Positions 2,013-6,826 of a DNA stretch of 34,928 bases are shown in pieces. The notes beneath the pieces are model-generated. The model saw only the letters and a program-made list of their open reading frames with translations. It was not told the DNA's origin and made no database searches. How positions within the stretch are numbered: position 1 is the stretch's first letter; each line of letters begins with the position of its first letter. A program made the translations under genes and the position numbers. This DNA is from Acidimicrobiia bacterium. GTDB taxonomy: Bacteria; Actinomycetota; Acidimicrobiia; Acidimicrobiales; AC-14. Where the stretch lies: assembly GCA_023265025.1 (NCBI GenBank), contig JAHFUP010000056.1:1-34928 (forward strand). Reading direction: 5' to 3'.

Positions 2013-2055
2013 ACCACTCCCAAATCGGCGGTGGAGAACGAGTCATTTACTCAAT

Positions 2056-2404
2056 TCACTCGACGCGCCCCGGTATCCATGTACGCTTGACCGGGTAGCC
2101 GTCGTACCGAGCGTCCACCCCACCCAGTCCCAGGAGCGATTCGACTCGAGAGGCGTGTATGACGACGCGCAGGTGAGCGTACCGGGCTCGCCGCGCACCT
2201 CGGCGAGCCTCTCCCAGCCTTTGCCACCGGCCATCTCGACATCCACAAGCACAATGTCGGGCGCAATGGGCCTGGCGCAGTGCCACTGCTGCCTTGGCCG
2301 GGCACGCAGCCAGCGTGACTTCGAAGCGGCGGTCGAGAGCATCCGCGCCATGAGCACATGCAGGTGACATGGCTGTCATCGTGCACGAGCACGTGCGGAC
2401 GCAT
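2056..2404 (-). pseudogene. Decayed response-regulator receiver domain
   Basis: On the minus strand an ATG at 2404, 7 nt after the M50 protease stop, opens with MRPHVLVHDDSH, a degenerate version of the acidic pocket of CheY-like receivers. The rest of the fold is spread over three frames: MLMARML, then DRRFEVTLAACPAKAAVALRQ, then APDIVLVDVEMAGGKGWERL with the phospho-acceptor Asp region. After that come VVIHASRVESLLGLG and VDARYDGYPVKR, the switch Ser/Thr and conserved Lys regions. At least four frame changes are needed within 350 bp, while the neighbouring M50 gene is clean, so this is decay rather than sequencing error. It was probably the last gene of the protease operon. No output domain is visible; the sequence ends against the IS66 remnant. 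Confidence 0.6.
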
Positions 2405-2411
2405 CCGAAGC

Positions 2412-3695
2412 TCACCCACGGTCGGGCCGTCCTGCGTACGACGAGCTCTTGCGCGCCGCGGCCCGCACGAGGACGACGGCGAGCCCTGCGAACGGGACCA
2501 TGAGCAGAGTCAGTTGCAGGCCACTGCCGAGGGCCGGCCCGGGGGCACCAGCACGCAGCGCCGCGGCCAGCACGTCGCCTTGTCGCATGGACGAGGCCCA
2601 GACGGTCGCCAGCAGGTGTGGCAGGCGCACGACGAGCAAGGTCAGAGCGACACCGAGTAGGGGAACAGTCACCATTACCCATGCGGTTACCACCGCACGT
2701 GGGCCTGGGCGCAGGGCGGTCAGCGCCCGGGGCGTTCGCCTCCATGGGACAAGGCTCCCGAGCACCGGGCGGACGTACCGGAAGAGGTCCGGGACACCAG
2801 CCAAGTCGCTCACGAGGTAATAGCCGTCGAGGCGGACGAAGGGGACAAACTGCTGGAGGATGAGCAAGTGGTGGAGCATGATCAGCACGGCCAGCGGCTC
2901 GAACCCTGTGACCAGGTAGGCCGCCGCGAGCAAGAGGACGAAAAGCACGTTGAAGTAGACGCCGCCAAGGTCGGCGCGGATACGCCCAGATCGGCTCAGC
3001 CGATACGAGTCGTTCATGTCGTTGAAGAACACCGGCCAGATGAGGTAGATGCCCGCGCCGATCGCGCCGGGCACGGCTCCTCCATAGCGAGATGCCGTCG
3101 CATGTCCAAACTCGTGGAACACGGCAGCGGCGACCGTGATCGCGAGGGCCATGACAAGCAGCGTCGGCCGGTGGAAGAAGTCGTCCAGACCGGCTGGCAC
3201 GCCGTGCCCGACGAACAGCCATACGTCGACGATCGCGAGCAGGACCAGGGAAGGTACGACGACTGCGGGCAGGAAAAGAGGCCGGAGCCAAGTGGCCACC
3301 TTCATGACGAGGCCCGCGGGGATCATGGCGGCCCGTACCGGCAGCGGGCCGGCACCCCGAGCTGAAGCTGCCGGCCGGACTCTGCGGTCGTCTTCAACGA
3401 CGCCCAGTGGCCGAAGTTTCCGCTCGATGAGGTAGTGAATATCGGCCCTACTGATACGCTTCCCCACGTGGGCGGTCATCGATGTGGCAATCTCATCGAC
3501 ATGGCGGCTTTCGGCGAGCGACGATGCGAGCAGGTAGAGCACCGGCGATACCTCGATGACGACCCCGTCAGCGCGCCGGATCAGGAACGGGGCCTCCACG
3601 GCGCCCGAACTCTGGTACCGCCCGAGGAACTCGGCGCCCTCGACAAGTCGGATCGTTCGCGGCGCCTGCGGCTGGGGGCTGGAAGGGACTGTCAT
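2412..3695 (-). CDS. PqqD-like domain/M50-family membrane zinc metalloprotease
   Basis: This 427-aa protein has a small N-terminal domain (residues about 25-100) of the PqqD/RiPP-recognition type, including a GVVIEVSPVLYLLASSL segment and a following winged-helix-like stretch. Next come membrane segments from about 135 and the zinc site HEFGH at 194-198 inside a helix, with the supporting motif RLDGYYLVSDLAG near 288-300 supplying the likely third ligand Asp. More hydrophobic helices reach the C-terminus. This is the architecture of putative peptide zinc metalloproteases (YydH-like) found next to RiPP precursors. It lies 63 nt after the 63-aa candidate precursor on the same strand, so it probably cleaves or exports that peptide. 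GGAG is 11 nt before the chosen ATG. Another ATG five bases upstream reads only two codons. Substrate and function are inferred from context. Confidence 0.8.
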   Translation of the reverse strand: MTVPSSPQPQAPRTIRLVEGAEFLGRYQSSGAVEAPFLIRRADGVVIEVSPVLYLLASSLAESRHVDEIATSMTAHVGKRISRADIHYLIERKLRPLGVVEDDRRVRPAASARGAGPLPVRAAMIPAGLVMKVATWLRPLFLPAVVVPSLVLLAIVDVWLFVGHGVPAGLDDFFHRPTLLVMALAITVAAAVFHEFGHATASRYGGAVPGAIGAGIYLIWPVFFNDMNDSYRLSRSGRIRADLGGVYFNVLFVLLLAAAYLVTGFEPLAVLIMLHHLLILQQFVPFVRLDGYYLVSDLAGVPDLFRYVRPVLGSLVPWRRTPRALTALRPGPRAVVTAWVMVTVPLLGVALTLLVVRLPHLLATVWASSMRQGDVLAAALRAGAPGPALGSGLQLTLLMVPFAGLAVVLVRAAARKSSSYAGRPDRG

Positions 3696-3712
3696 CGCAT
3701 GTCTGTCTCCAA

Positions 3713-3745
3713 GGCCCGGGCAGGGGGGAGCGGCCTGCCCGGGCC
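3713..3745 (-). terminator. 12-bp hairpin between precursor and protease genes
   Basis: A perfect 12-bp inverted repeat (3713-3724 with 3734-3745; 9-nt loop) fills most of the 63-nt gap between the precursor stop and the protease start. The stem is almost all G/C and there is no U-tract after it, so it could act as an attenuator or an mRNA 3' stabiliser rather than a classical terminator. Partial termination here would give more precursor than protease mRNA, as is common in RiPP operons. Confidence 0.5.
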
Positions 3746-3758
3746 CGCAGGAGGCGTC

Positions 3759-3950
3759 CTAGAGGCTGCCGATGGAGCCGAAGAGCCAGTTCGGCCCGCT
3801 CGTGTTCACGTTGACCGCGAGCCCGTCGAGGCCCGCCAACGGAATCCCCAGAAGAGATATGCCAATGAGAAGATCGCGCGCCGGCAGCACGGCGGCGTGC
3901 TGACCCTCGAGTTCCTCAATGGTGAAGTCGCTGGTGTTGGTAGAAGTCAT
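3759..3950 (-). CDS. Candidate RiPP precursor peptide (63 aa)
   Basis: A small peptide starts at ATG 3950 behind an excellent ribosome site (AAGGAG, 5-nt spacer) and ends at TAG 3761-3759. The N-terminal third is polar and acidic (FTIEELEGQHAAVLPARDLL), which looks like a leader with an amphipathic recognition helix. The rest is hydrophobic and Gly/Asn/Ser rich: a LIGISLLGIPLAGLDG stretch, VNVNTSG, then PNWLFGSIGSL at the end. It has no Cys and few Ser/Thr, so lanthipeptide-type chemistry is unlikely. Its codons (ATT, TCT, ATA) are less GC-biased than those of the surrounding genome. Leader-like peptides with an LPxR(E/D) element are, as I recall, common but uncharacterised in actinobacteria. 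The PqqD/M50 gene immediately follows. Precursor status is inferred from size, leader/core layout and context. Confidence 0.6.
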   Translation of the reverse strand: MTSTNTSDFTIEELEGQHAAVLPARDLLIGISLLGIPLAGLDGLAVNVNTSGPNWLFGSIGSL

Positions 3951-4026
3951 GGAAGCTCCTTATCCTGTAGAAGAGGGAGTCCGGGATCGGGCTCCAAGTC
4001 CGCCGTCGTTGTCGCGGTAATTCAGA

Positions 4027-4164
4027 TCAGTACCCGCACATCGGAAAGGCTGCGGCCGCCGAGGCCATCACCGCGATGGTGGCGAGCGACGTCGCGCAGG
4101 CGATGGCCAGCCGAAAGCACAGGCCTCGCCAGGATCCCTTCCGTACACTGCGAGTCACTTCCAT
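4027..4164 (-). CDS. Small 45-aa hydrophobic peptide upstream of the precursor
   Basis: An unlisted short frame starts at ATG 4164 with GGAG 12 nt upstream and stops at TGA 4029-4027, 76 nt before the precursor start on the same strand. It encodes a basic N-terminus (RSVRKGSWRG), a hydrophobic stretch LCFRLAIACATSLATIAVM, small residues ASAAAA and a short tail FPMCGY. That is the shape of a Sec-type signal peptide with cleavage near the Ala run, or of a single-span membrane peptide. It has three Cys (16, 23, 43). It could be a second precursor, a secreted signal peptide or a small membrane partner. There is no homology evidence, and it may not be translated. Confidence 0.4.
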   Translation of the reverse strand: MEVTRSVRKGSWRGLCFRLAIACATSLATIAVMASAAAAFPMCGY

Positions 4165-4224
4165 TTGCTTCTGCGTCTCCAATCTGTGGTCAATGGCGTG
4201 ACGCGTTTCGACGGGCGTCAGCTC

Positions 4225-4241
4225 ATTGCTCGTGCAATTGC
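4225..4241. promoter_or_regulatory. Dyad in the divergent regulator/precursor region
   Basis: ATTGC-TCGT-GCAAT (4225-4238) overlaps the palindrome GCAATTGC (4234-4241). It lies between the divergent regulator (ATG 4373) and the small-peptide operon (ATG 4164), in a region that otherwise shows no gene. It is a reasonable operator candidate for the XRE domain of the neighbouring regulator. No clear -10/-35 pair was assigned here. Confidence 0.3.
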
Positions 4242-4372
4242 GCTCCGAATCGCACCTCGCCGACCTGCTGCGCCACGAGGAGCTATCTCGGTCGCATCAG
4301 CACGAACCCGCCGTCACGTTCCAATGGGAACAATTCGCCGGTAGAACCAGAAGGGACAAACCGGGACAACTG

Positions 4373-6826
4373 ATGCCGAGCCTGTCTGCACCGTCCCCTT
4401 CACTCGACGGGTTGGGTCCGTGGGTCCGACACTGGCGGCATGACAATCGATGGTCGCAGGAGCGGCTCGCGGAAGCGCTGGCGTATGAGGTGTCCTATGT
4501 CGCCAAGATCGAGCGCGGCCGGCGTCGCCCCACGCGCCAGTTCCTCGCCCGGTTGGCAACGGTCGTCGACGTCGACGAGAGGGAGCTCATGCAGCTCTCC
4601 CGTCAACCAGGCGCGAGGCTACGGCTGCCGGCTTCGCGCGACGAGGTAGTGGGGCGGGACTGCGAGATCCAAGAGGTGATTGAGCTCCTACGCACCCAGA
4701 GGTGCGTGACTCTCGTTGGGGCTCCTGGAATCGGCAAGACGACCATGGCCCTCGAGGCTGCGTGGCGCATCGGGGACGACCATCGCCACGGCGCCTGCTT
4801 CGTGTCCTTGGTCGACGTATCCGCAGCCGCCGCGGTTCCGTCCGCATTGGTACATCATCTCGGGCTTATGGAGACTGGGATTGCCGCGCTGGATGCGTTG
4901 CTAATTTCAGCTCTTCGCCACCGGGACATTCTCCTTGTCCTCGACAACTTCGAGCATGTACTTCCTGCGCGCACGCTGGTGTCAAGCTTACTCAGCGGCA
5001 CGAGCCACGTGCGGGCTTTGGTCACAAGTCGCGAACCGTTGGGGATCGATGGGGAAACAACGTACCCGGTGCTCCCGCTTACATATCCCGACCCGGATGG
5101 CGGAACACCCAGCGATTTGGACCAGTATTCCGCCGTGAGGGTGTTCGTAGCACGGTCGCGCCTGGAGCGCCAAGACTTCGCCTTGGATGCAGCCAATGCT
5201 GGCCCGATCATGGAAATATGCGCCCGATTGGCCGGCCTGCCACTCGCCATCACGCTCACGGCAAAATCGAGCCGGATCATGTCACCCTCAGACATCGCCA
5301 GGACCCTCCGCGCTCGCCTCGAGCTGTCACCCGGCGAACCCGGAGAGTCGTCGGCTCACCGCAGCATCGCCGCCGCCCTCGACTGGAGTTGGTCGTTGCT
5401 CTCTCCGGGGCACCGAGCCCTGCTGGCGAGCCTGAGCATCTTCAGCGGAGGATGCTCGCTTGCCGCGGTCGAGTCGGTCTGTTCAGAGGACGGCGACGAT
5501 ATCCCGACTGCCCTCGCCGCCCTCGAGAGGAAGAGCCTGATCGGCGTGACTCCGTTCACCAACGGTGCTTCCCGGTTCGTCCTGCTTGAGCCCATACGCC
5601 GATATGCCCTCGAGAAGCTGAGCGAAAGGAGGATCCTCGATGATCTCCGGGCGCGGCATTGCGCTCATTTCCTGACCTTCGCCGAGGCATCCGAGTTGAA
5701 AATGACATCAGGCGAGGGCCAGAACCAGGCCCTCAAGGAGCTCGAGACGGAGCATTCCAACCTGGCCGCCGCCTTCGAGTGGGCGATCGAATCGTTACCC
5801 GAGAGCGCGCTGCGGCTCGGTGCCGCTCTCTGGCGGTTCTATTCGATGCGACGAATATCCGAGGGTCGCCGGTGGTTGACACTGGCCCTGGAAGGGGCTT
5901 CGGGTGCACCGGTGATGCGAGCCCGAGCGCTCAATGGCTTGGCGATTCTCGCTCGCGCCCAGGGTGACCTCCACGTCGCCGACGCCGCTTTAGCAGAAGC
6001 GCGCCAGCTCGCCGTGGAAGGTGCCGGCAGGAACGAGCTCGCATTCGCAACGCTGACCGAGGGCATCGTCGCCGAGGACCGGTCGATCTACGAGGTGGCA
6101 GAGCTTCGATTCACCGAGGCCGAATATCTGTATCGCAAGATCGGCGACGAACGCGGTGTCGGCCACGCACTGAACTGTCTCGGCGTGATCGGCCTACGCC
6201 GAGGGGACTTCGCGGGCGCAGCCGCGAAGTTGCATGCCGCCCTGGCTGCGTTCCGCTCGCTCGACGACCGGTGGAGTATTGCTGTTTCCGCCACGAACCT
6301 CGGATGGATCGCGGAGCAGGCCGGTGACCTCGCCGAGGCCGCCACTTGGTACGAGGAGACCCATGAGATCTGGAAGGCCGCCGGTGACGATCGCGGGCTC
6401 GGACGATCCCTCATGAGCCTCGGCCGGATCGCGCGCAAGCAGAGGAGGTTCAGCCAGGCTCGCAGCCTGGTTGAGGAGGCGCTGGTGACCTTCCACCGTC
6501 TCGGTGACCGACGGCTCGCCGCCGCGTGCCTGGGGCAGCTGGCCGAGCCTGCCTACGAGCGCCAGAGCTGTGATGTCGGCGCTCGGCTGCTTGGTGCCGC
6601 GGAGGCGCTGCGGGCGGCCCTCGGTACTCCGGCGTGGGAGGAGGAGGCCGCACTGGAGGAACTTGTTCTCCGCGCGTTGCGCGCTCACATGGGTGCGGAC
6701 GCGGCGAACAGGGCCTACACAACAGGCCGGGGACTCACCCTCGAAGACGTGGTGGACATGGTTCGAGCTGATGCGTGGCCACCGCGGGGCCGGCGGAGGA
6801 CCGCTCCATCAGTGGGCACGGCATAG
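4373..6826 (+). CDS. XRE HTH/NB-ARC ATPase/TPR transcriptional regulator
   Basis: From ATG 4373 the protein is 817 aa. The frame is open from 4226, but the first 49 codons show no family features and the HTH follows at once from 4373. Residues 14-75 are an XRE-type helix-turn-helix (WSQERLAEAL, YVAKIERGRRRP). An NB-ARC/STAND ATPase follows, with P-loop GAPGIGKTT at 116-124, Walker B LLVLDNFEH at 187-195, TSREPLG at 218-224 and GLPLAIT at 288-294. A winged helix (SIFSGGCSL, LEPIRRYALEKL) and then TPR-like helical repeats fill the C-terminal half. STAND regulators use nucleotide-driven oligomerisation triggered by a ligand bound to the repeats. The gene diverges from the peptide/protease operon, so it is the likely local switch. 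The ligand is unknown, possibly the peptide product. Confidence 0.85.
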   Translation: MPSLSAPSPSLDGLGPWVRHWRHDNRWSQERLAEALAYEVSYVAKIERGRRRPTRQFLARLATVVDVDERELMQLSRQPGARLRLPASRDEVVGRDCEIQEVIELLRTQRCVTLVGAPGIGKTTMALEAAWRIGDDHRHGACFVSLVDVSAAAAVPSALVHHLGLMETGIAALDALLISALRHRDILLVLDNFEHVLPARTLVSSLLSGTSHVRALVTSREPLGIDGETTYPVLPLTYPDPDGGTPSDLDQYSAVRVFVARSRLERQDFALDAANAGPIMEICARLAGLPLAITLTAKSSRIMSPSDIARTLRARLELSPGEPGESSAHRSIAAALDWSWSLLSPGHRALLASLSIFSGGCSLAAVESVCSEDGDDIPTALAALERKSLIGVTPFTNGASRFVLLEPIRRYALEKLSERRILDDLRARHCAHFLTFAEASELKMTSGEGQNQALKELETEHSNLAAAFEWAIESLPESALRLGAALWRFYSMRRISEGRRWLTLALEGASGAPVMRARALNGLAILARAQGDLHVADAALAEARQLAVEGAGRNELAFATLTEGIVAEDRSIYEVAELRFTEAEYLYRKIGDERGVGHALNCLGVIGLRRGDFAGAAAKLHAALAAFRSLDDRWSIAVSATNLGWIAEQAGDLAEAATWYEETHEIWKAAGDDRGLGRSLMSLGRIARKQRRFSQARSLVEEALVTFHRLGDRRLAAACLGQLAEPAYERQSCDVGARLLGAAEALRAALGTPAWEEEAALEELVLRALRAHMGADAANRAYTTGRGLTLEDVVDMVRADAWPPRGRRRTAPSVGTA

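Follow-up and report, generated by a model that had tools for sequence, protein, structure and literature searches.

What becomes of a short ribosomal peptide whose only enzymatic companion is a membrane protease with a predicted leader-recognition domain of its own? This question is raised by a locus on contig JAHFUP010000056.1 of an Acidimicrobiia bacterium (assembly GCA_023265025.1), which was analysed over its whole length of 34,928 nucleotides, referred to here as the window, and which is contig C9 of a genome of 5.45 Mb in 185 contigs. The locus encodes a precursor-like peptide, a protease predicted to join an RRE domain (the recognition element of ribosomally synthesized and post-translationally modified peptides, RiPPs) to an M50 metalloprotease, and a divergent XRE/NB-ARC/TPR regulator (TPR, tetratricopeptide repeat). 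A first-pass annotation had described these as a minimal three-gene form of peptide system, and coordinates, motifs and domain matches confirm all three genes where it placed them (Table 1). The peptide and the RRE-M50 protease are a conserved, widespread leader-protease pair. The regulator, judged by sequence comparison, is a local neighbour and not a part of the conserved unit.

Within the own genome, a query with the peptide only reached contigs C185 (E 1.3e-22), C41 (E 3e-8) and C58 (E 0.04), followed by two poorer places, and a query with the protease only returned exactly C9, C185, C41 and C58. Because the separate searches converge on the same three other contigs, the pairing goes beyond chance. 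Of these four paralogous pairs, those on C185 and C41 have one peptide gene each and that on C58 has three in tandem, all just before the protease gene. At the family level 6 of the 10 genomes searched have a relative of the protease, at the class level 5 of 296 and at the phylum level 26 of 396, in overlapping samples that include the own genome; so do 20 of 251 Chloroflexi-phylum genomes. Only the best few candidates per genome were scored in the larger samples, so these counts may be low. The pair also occurs in records of Acidobacteria (locus L007) and Chloroflexi (L008 and L010; L009 begins too near the protease gene), and pairs of other peptide types lie on two plasmids of Streptomyces, NZ_CP107797.1 and NZ_CP102333.1, where both partners are annotated as hypothetical proteins. 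Phage records yielded no protease relative.

Forty-four of 47 protease hits (E < 1e-60 in a local search) were compared further, leaving out the distant or fragmentary L095, L096 and L097. At least 500 nt of upstream sequence was available for 42 of them, that is, for all but L036 and L009 at contig ends, and 40 of the 42 have a leader-like peptide ('..ELExQxxELPx[RK]..') within 1.5 kb of the protease gene, 37 on the same strand and three on the opposite strand only (L032, L070 and L074). A leader-motif score, fixed after examples had been seen, gave 69 matches in 59.5 kb near proteases and 10 in 385 kb elsewhere. Another motif scan, over all loci but L095, was positive near the protease in 32 of 44 cases; the stretch 3-4.5 kb upstream was positive in 3 of 32, the downstream side in 8 of 36 and the opposite strand in 7 of 44. 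The Chloroflexi-phylum loci, available for 15 of 24 matches and including two that repeat L008 and L010, all have leader-like peptides. As the first-pass annotation had supposed, a conserved peptide gene does accompany homologous M50 genes, both in the four own-genome pairs and in the 40 loci.

The protease carries the marks of the M50 class, namely HExxH and a distant Asp in membrane helices. Residues H194, E195, G197, H198 and D290 are invariant in the 44 relatives; D290 we take to be the third metal ligand from what is known of site-2 proteases. Family profiles respond faintly. The window protease came nowhere near a Pfam cut-off and scored 70 of 300 bits with the NCBIfam model daptide_HExxH and 45.9 of 225 bits with YydH/LiaK (NF058609), both far under the cut-off; all 44 relatives match both models at E 0.001 or better. 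With Pfam at E 0.01, M50 was matched by eight of the 44 and PqqD by two, and a search of solved structures by sequence returned nothing beyond a pair of mucins (E 0.5 and 0.9).

Structure prediction was more informative for the N-terminal domain. In the model of residues 1-110 (pLDDT 76.4, better than the 66.6 of the full protein, whose pTM is 0.51), four strands are followed by three helices and a final strand, which is the element order of RRE/PqqD domains. Its best Foldseek matches are the lasso-peptide RREs 5v1v/5v1u and 6jx3, whose structures were solved together with a leader, and PqqD 5sxy (probability 0.98-1.00, E 4.5e-3 to 4.7e-2). At E 0.001 Foldseek gave no match for either model, and the assignment is made from probability and Z scores. 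The full model likewise aligns with lasso RREs (5v1v, Z 9.4; next, 9.1) and with PqqD 5sxy (Z 7.7). The remainder of the model resembles SpoIVFB:pro-sigmaK (8vjl, Z 7.3) and the site-2 protease of M. jannaschii (3b4r, Z 7.0), matches that are each weak when taken singly. The prediction supports a protein composed of an RRE domain on a site-2-type protease, and through the likeness to 5v1v, 6jx3 and 5sxy it would supply the domain typical of RRE-dependent RiPP systems. The membrane M50 protease with its own PqqD-like domain described in the first-pass annotation is borne out by the invariant HEFGH and LDGY residues and by the matches to 5v1v and 5sxy; sequence profiles barely detect the PqqD part.

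The second hallmark of RRE-dependent RiPPs, a precursor with a conserved leader and a variable core beside an RRE gene, is likewise present, with several unlike core types downstream of a shared leader. The LPAR element noticed in the first-pass annotation occupies residues 22-25 of the window peptide. L14, P23 and R25 are invariant across the six own-genome peptides, and L14, L22, P23 and R25 across the nine window-type rows of our profile. A rough leader consensus, L[TS]xEEL[ED]x[QE]x[AG]xELPxR[ED]x[ML], was drawn from 39 hand-listed peptides of many types. Its P and R/K were fixed by the choice of motif and so do not count as independent conservation; around LPx[RK], L stands eight positions before in 32 of the 39, E nine before in 29, and the third position past the R/K is M or L in 37.

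After the leader the window peptide continues into a membrane-like stretch that contains Gly and Pro (Kyte-Doolittle 19-residue mean 1.93; 1.3-1.95 over the peptides scored). Substrates of site-2 proteases often have Gly and Pro inside the membrane segment. Past the leader, the window type has the consensus LLxGISLLGIPLxGLDGLxVNVNTSGPNWLxGS. It was found on C9, C185 and C41 and in genomes G008 (L035), G432 (L075), G476 (L077, two copies), G534 (L093), G417 (L094), G544 (L111) and G931 (L129, a decayed locus). The segment LGIPLxG is retained across different bacterial families, and the C-terminal part is recognisable in 7 of the 11 window-type peptides (window, L015, L035, L077a, L093, L094 and L111). 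Eight pairs of window-type peptides gave dN/dS values of 0.08-0.41, with dS > 1 in seven. The window-type peptide is under purifying selection, and the precursor is conserved at the amino-acid level, one of the points on which the first-pass annotation had staked its proposal. Ten peptides of different types had no NCBIfam match at E 1; in Pfam they gave two stray hits (E 0.14 and 0.7), both under cut-off.

Of the eight window-type proteases, six group in a single clade (support 98/94), which L093 and L094 join weakly together with L041 (47/92). On the protease tree the peptide type changes twice, compared with 7.5 times in shuffles.

A profile of the nine window-type peptides was also run over 396 genomes of the phylum and 397 of the order. 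Eleven strong hits came back, at E 4.8e-15 or better. Nine of them recover the rows from which the profile had been built, each upstream of an intact RRE-M50 gene, and as these had been found beside proteases the search was mostly rejected as an independent test of pairing. Two hits are new, one in G544, where the contig ends 64 nt away, and one in G931, before an RRE domain with the protease part missing; save for G544 at its contig end, no strong hit is a solitary window-type peptide. A weak hit in G520 (E 2.6e-4) lies beside a protease and belongs to another type, so it was not counted; a second, in G397 (E 1.4e-4), was set aside as chance, with no LPxR reading frame or protease seen there. 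A round of searching with G417 (24 genomes) returned known hits only. At the decayed locus L129 (7504-8645), the peptide frame is preceded in frame by a piece resembling an AAA-type regulator (by eye), and the RRE domain without protease part adjoins a prepilin-peptidase-like gene.

Table 1 Features of the locus in the window (aa, amino acid residues)
Feature	Position	Strand	Remarks
Precursor-like peptide gene, 63 aa	3759..3950	-	ATG start; AAGGAG just upstream (by eye)
Leader recognition element EELEGQHAAVLPAR	3876..3917	-	Residues 12-25
Hydrophobic, membrane-segment-like stretch LLIGISLLGIPLAGLDGLAV	3813..3872	-	Residues 27-46; presumed place of intramembrane cleavage
C-terminal part VNVNTSGPNWLFGSIGSL	3762..3815	-	Residues 46-63; presumed released
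RRE-M50 protease, 427 aa	2412..3695	-	3' of peptide gene
N-terminal RRE/PqqD-like domain	3387..3656	-	Residues 14-103; predicted structure
HEFGH zinc site	3102..3116	-	Residues 194-198
LDGY, presumed third metal ligand	2820..2831	-	Residues 289-292
Divergent XRE/NB-ARC/TPR regulator	4226..6826	+	Likely start ATG 4373, not TTG 4226 (by eye); non-conserved neighbour
Possible response-regulator receiver remnant	2043..2357	-	Directly 3' of protease; by eye, weak

The third gene of the locus behaves differently. The window regulator matches helix-turn-helix (HTH), nucleoside triphosphatase (NTPase) and TPR models, the NB-ARC model itself staying below its cut-off, and the divergent regulator of the first-pass annotation is in this sense real. 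No relative of it (E 0.001) is encoded at any other locus examined. Two of the other own-genome pairs, those on C41 and C58, do not have it beside them, the sequence at C185 is too short to tell, and 14 further matches to the XRE/NB-ARC gene lie on other stretches of this genome. The three-gene form does not survive these results: of the co-occurrence across genomes that had been suggested, the part with PqqD/M50 holds and the part with XRE/NB-ARC does not. As a receptor of the RRNPP kind, the regulator would have the HTH and the TPRs, with an NTPase domain between them and no relative at other loci. That the peptide is a signal sensed by this regulator is a guess, because the regulator is not conserved with the pair and other loci carry other regulators.

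These other regulators are varied. A histidine kinase and a LuxR-type response regulator diverge from the pair on C41, and LuxR-type regulators do so at L093, L094 and L111, with a second such gene 3' of the protease at L093 and L094. In three of these proteins (two from L093, one from L111) the receiver part is below the Pfam cut-off or unmatched, and the L093 and L111 receivers seem by eye to be without the phosphorylated Asp. Atypical receivers elsewhere can bind small ligands; by analogy, the degenerate-receiver LuxR-type regulators at L093, L094 and L111 may bind the peptide. L035 has no divergent regulator and a receiver-only protein downstream, L129 has no clear regulator, and at C185, L075 and L077 the sequence breaks off too early upstream for a verdict. 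Among the seven window-type loci with at least 1.5 kb before the peptide (5.7 kb on the regulator side at L111), a regulator diverges from the peptide in five, namely the window, L016, L093, L094 and L111, and not in L035 and L129. A LuxR-type HTH lies within -3/+2 kb of 10 of the 44 pairs, at a density of 0.86 per 10 kb compared with 0.11 further off, a contrast biased by a profile seeded from the near ones and by the double counting of some domains.

The remaining neighbourhood was searched for modifying enzymes. Clustering of 572 predicted genes from the 47 loci yielded, besides protease and precursors, the following families present in at least three loci: response-regulator-like proteins (17 loci, generic ones included), ABC ATPases (scattered over eight loci), a protein of other types that looks secreted, and various small clusters. 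None of the families common to at least three of the 47 loci is a modifying-enzyme family; profiles were run on only part of the genes, and an enzyme confined to a single locus could be missed. Window-type neighbours read singly, where sequence was present, include none that resembles a RiPP modifying enzyme (an AHSA1-type protein lies downstream at L077). The first-pass annotation, which had seen no modifying enzyme, thus agrees with the wider set of loci.

Within the window, the contig end beside the pair (781-2012) holds broken frames which we take to be those of an IS66-like transposase and a group II intron protein. The possible receiver remnant has no Pfam match at E 0.01. A small reading frame at 4030-4164 (- strand), signal-peptide-like and ending in FPMCGY, was considered as a second peptide and rejected as a conserved part (best non-self match E 0.0116 in the 10 family genomes). 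An operator and promoter search of 3940-4400 found three weak inverted repeats; 2300-4500 contained no sigma-70-type promoter match and no terminator match, and the window no Rfam match at gathering score and no tRNA. Near the pairs of L035 and L015 (C185) lie similar SMC/SbcC-like ATPase genes (by eye), and from this shared neighbour the C185 and G008 loci may be orthologous.

Loci of other types differ in further respects. In one common peptide type (L069, L071, L073, L112-L115 and others) the cores are rich in N, A and Q, as in NANVAAPVNAAVAANVLSDNSVAYADATQDAAIDQ, and often come as tandem copies; their make-up recalls curli-like amyloid repeats. At L017 and L108 a protein that looks secreted and contains Cys motifs (SCVDCQAVAAAFQIVLVTRD is an example) was read 3' of the protease, the L108 copy having no Pfam match, and the genes in the same place in L008, L032, L033, L037, L038, L073 and L074 cluster with it. 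In L078-L080, L082-L084 and L039, LPxKE leaders stand at the start of long reading frames and not of short peptides.

From these data we infer the following course of events. The RRE domain of the protease would grip the N-terminal leader (EELxxQxxxLPxR); the site-2-type protease would then cut the hydrophobic segment within the membrane; and the C-terminal part, in the window about VNVNTSGPNWLFGSIGSL, would be freed chemically unmodified. The freed peptide would most likely be a cell-cell or self signal read by the regulator beside the pair, in the window the XRE/NB-ARC/TPR protein, as the short hydrophobic peptides (SHP) matured with the help of the protease Eep act on Rgg. Leader binding and cleavage are proposed because of the known roles of RRE domains and site-2 proteases and because of the conserved pairing; the site of cleavage, the lack of modification, release and signalling belong, with these two, to the inferred part of the scheme. 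Taken as a whole, RRE-guided intramembrane cleavage that frees an unmodified hydrophobic peptide, most likely a signal for the adjacent regulator, seems to us about evenly poised between right and wrong.

Several points weigh against it. Cleavage, product and regulator response are predictions throughout. Our confidence is lowered because the peptide-only search was seeded with protease-adjacent rows and because the C-terminal part is variable: among the 11 window-type peptides, four (L016, L075, L077b and L129) lack it or differ there, which ill fits one conserved pheromone. The regulator type differs between loci, and 34 of the 44 protease loci are without a LuxR-type HTH in the -3/+2 kb range. 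Two of the 42 loci, L076 and L081, have no leader-like peptide upstream, and no dedicated exporter or importer recurs near the pair in the 47 loci. A modifying enzyme may be encoded elsewhere in the genome, and the full protease model, by its pLDDT, is of moderate confidence. The broader proposal, that of a widespread, unannotated family of peptides which are only cleaved, with the RRE serving proteolysis alone and the window type a pheromone sensed by interchangeable regulators, is one we put forward tentatively as a possibility.

The released peptide might instead be a membrane-active antimicrobial or self-toxic product, like the epipeptides and perhaps the daptides, possibly modified by an unlinked enzyme, with the regulators only controlling production. 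We consider this unlikely, while giving it some weight. Daptides and epipeptides do supply the nearest named protease families, the stretch that follows the leader is hydrophobic, and in other types one locus holds several tandem cores that differ from each other; daptide precursors, in the part of their description at hand, have a stretch rich in branched-chain residues (PMC10036551). What tells against a toxin is that no immunity gene, ABC exporter or modifying-enzyme family recurs beside the pair and that LGIPLxG is kept across families within the window type.

Site-2 proteases commonly act in regulated intramembrane proteolysis, and the peptide could be a small membrane protein that is trimmed or destroyed in this way, the leader-side fragment or the loss of the peptide mattering and not the core. 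C-terminal parts alike in 7 of the 11 window-type peptides and tandem precursors with different cores, which better fit the release of a product, make this improbable in our view, even granting that the model resembles SpoIVFB bound to pro-sigmaK (a middling Z), that the leader side is the part common to the peptide types and that the C-terminal part varies in the other four. That the peptides are surface or matrix material, with the repeat-like N/Q/A-rich cores of the common type assembling outside the cell and the window type as a hydrophobic cousin, draws on cores such as NANVAAPVNAAVAANVLSDNSVAYADATQDAAIDQ and on the secreted-looking protein downstream at some loci, and is very improbable given that the window-type core is without such composition and that the window-type loci read have no such downstream gene.

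We return to release of an unmodified peptide by the dedicated protease. RRE domains elsewhere mainly bring precursors to modifying enzymes, and a leader-reading intramembrane protease acting without such enzymes would, if true, depart from their usual role. Should the window type prove to be a pheromone, signalling by peptides could be tested directly in these little-known bacteria. Overall, the pair, which occurs in several bacterial groups, seems to represent a so far unannotated family of peptides that are released and may serve as signals. No Pfam or NCBIfam family was found for the peptide-protease system, and the open-access literature searched holds no description of LPxR peptides with RRE-M50 proteases; subscription papers, mostly outside that search, may describe it. 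In the part of the RRE-Finder survey available, other RRE fusions are named (PMC7470986).

Among known systems, daptide loci come closest in protease architecture. According to the accessible portions of their descriptions, they encode an RRE fused to the site-2 protease MpaP, a set of modifying enzymes, and precursors with ELExMEAP in the leader and Thr at the C-terminus (PMC10036551, PMC12338566). Shared with the present loci are the RRE N-terminal to an intramembrane site-2 metalloprotease, here seen in predicted structure and invariant residues, short and often multiple adjacent precursors, and an ELE leader element. The leader here is ELxxQxxELPx[RK] (EELEGQHAAVLPAR in the window) instead of ELExMEAP, the window peptide ends in Leu and none of the 11 window-type peptides in Thr, and the 70 bits of the window protease compare with a daptide_HExxH cut-off of 300. 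No MpaB/C/D/M modification gene and no decarboxylase/aminotransferase/methyltransferase set was seen by eye at the window and other window-type loci, some of them on short contigs, no daptide-enzyme profile having been run on the neighbours. Because leader, C-terminus, enzyme set and score cut-off all fail, the locus is not filed as a daptide and looks like a relative that shares the protease architecture. The statement of the first-pass annotation that the locus matches no familiar system thus stands for the locus as a whole and falls for the protease, whose architecture is that reported, in the excerpt consulted, for daptide loci (PMC10036551).

The epipeptide proteases EpeP/YydH/LiaK are likewise M50 intramembrane proteases beside a peptide gene, as far as the available accounts go (PMC10885120, PMC7026026); the present proteases have an RRE domain in addition and no recurring ABC pair nearby, and the window protease scores 45.9 bits against a cut-off of 225. 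A radical-SAM epimerase of the epipeptide (YydF) type was neither seen by eye beside the peptide nor recurring in the 47 loci. The pearlin proteases TglG/TmoG, too, are membrane M50 enzymes acting on a ribosomal peptide; they remove modified residues from the C-terminal end of a scaffold peptide (PMC10885120), and no such modification genes were seen here.

In streptococci, Eep, a member of the site-2 protease family, contributes to the maturation of SHP pheromones sensed by Rgg, as the available part of that study reports (PMC3150281). A short hydrophobic and apparently unmodified peptide, a site-2-type protease and a sensing transcription regulator are elements with which the window would correspond to it. 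Eep differs in being a single-copy homologue that serves several peptides. The window regulator differs in being a non-conserved NTPase with TPRs. We know of no RRE in Eep. SHP/Rgg/Eep is the best working analogy for the window.

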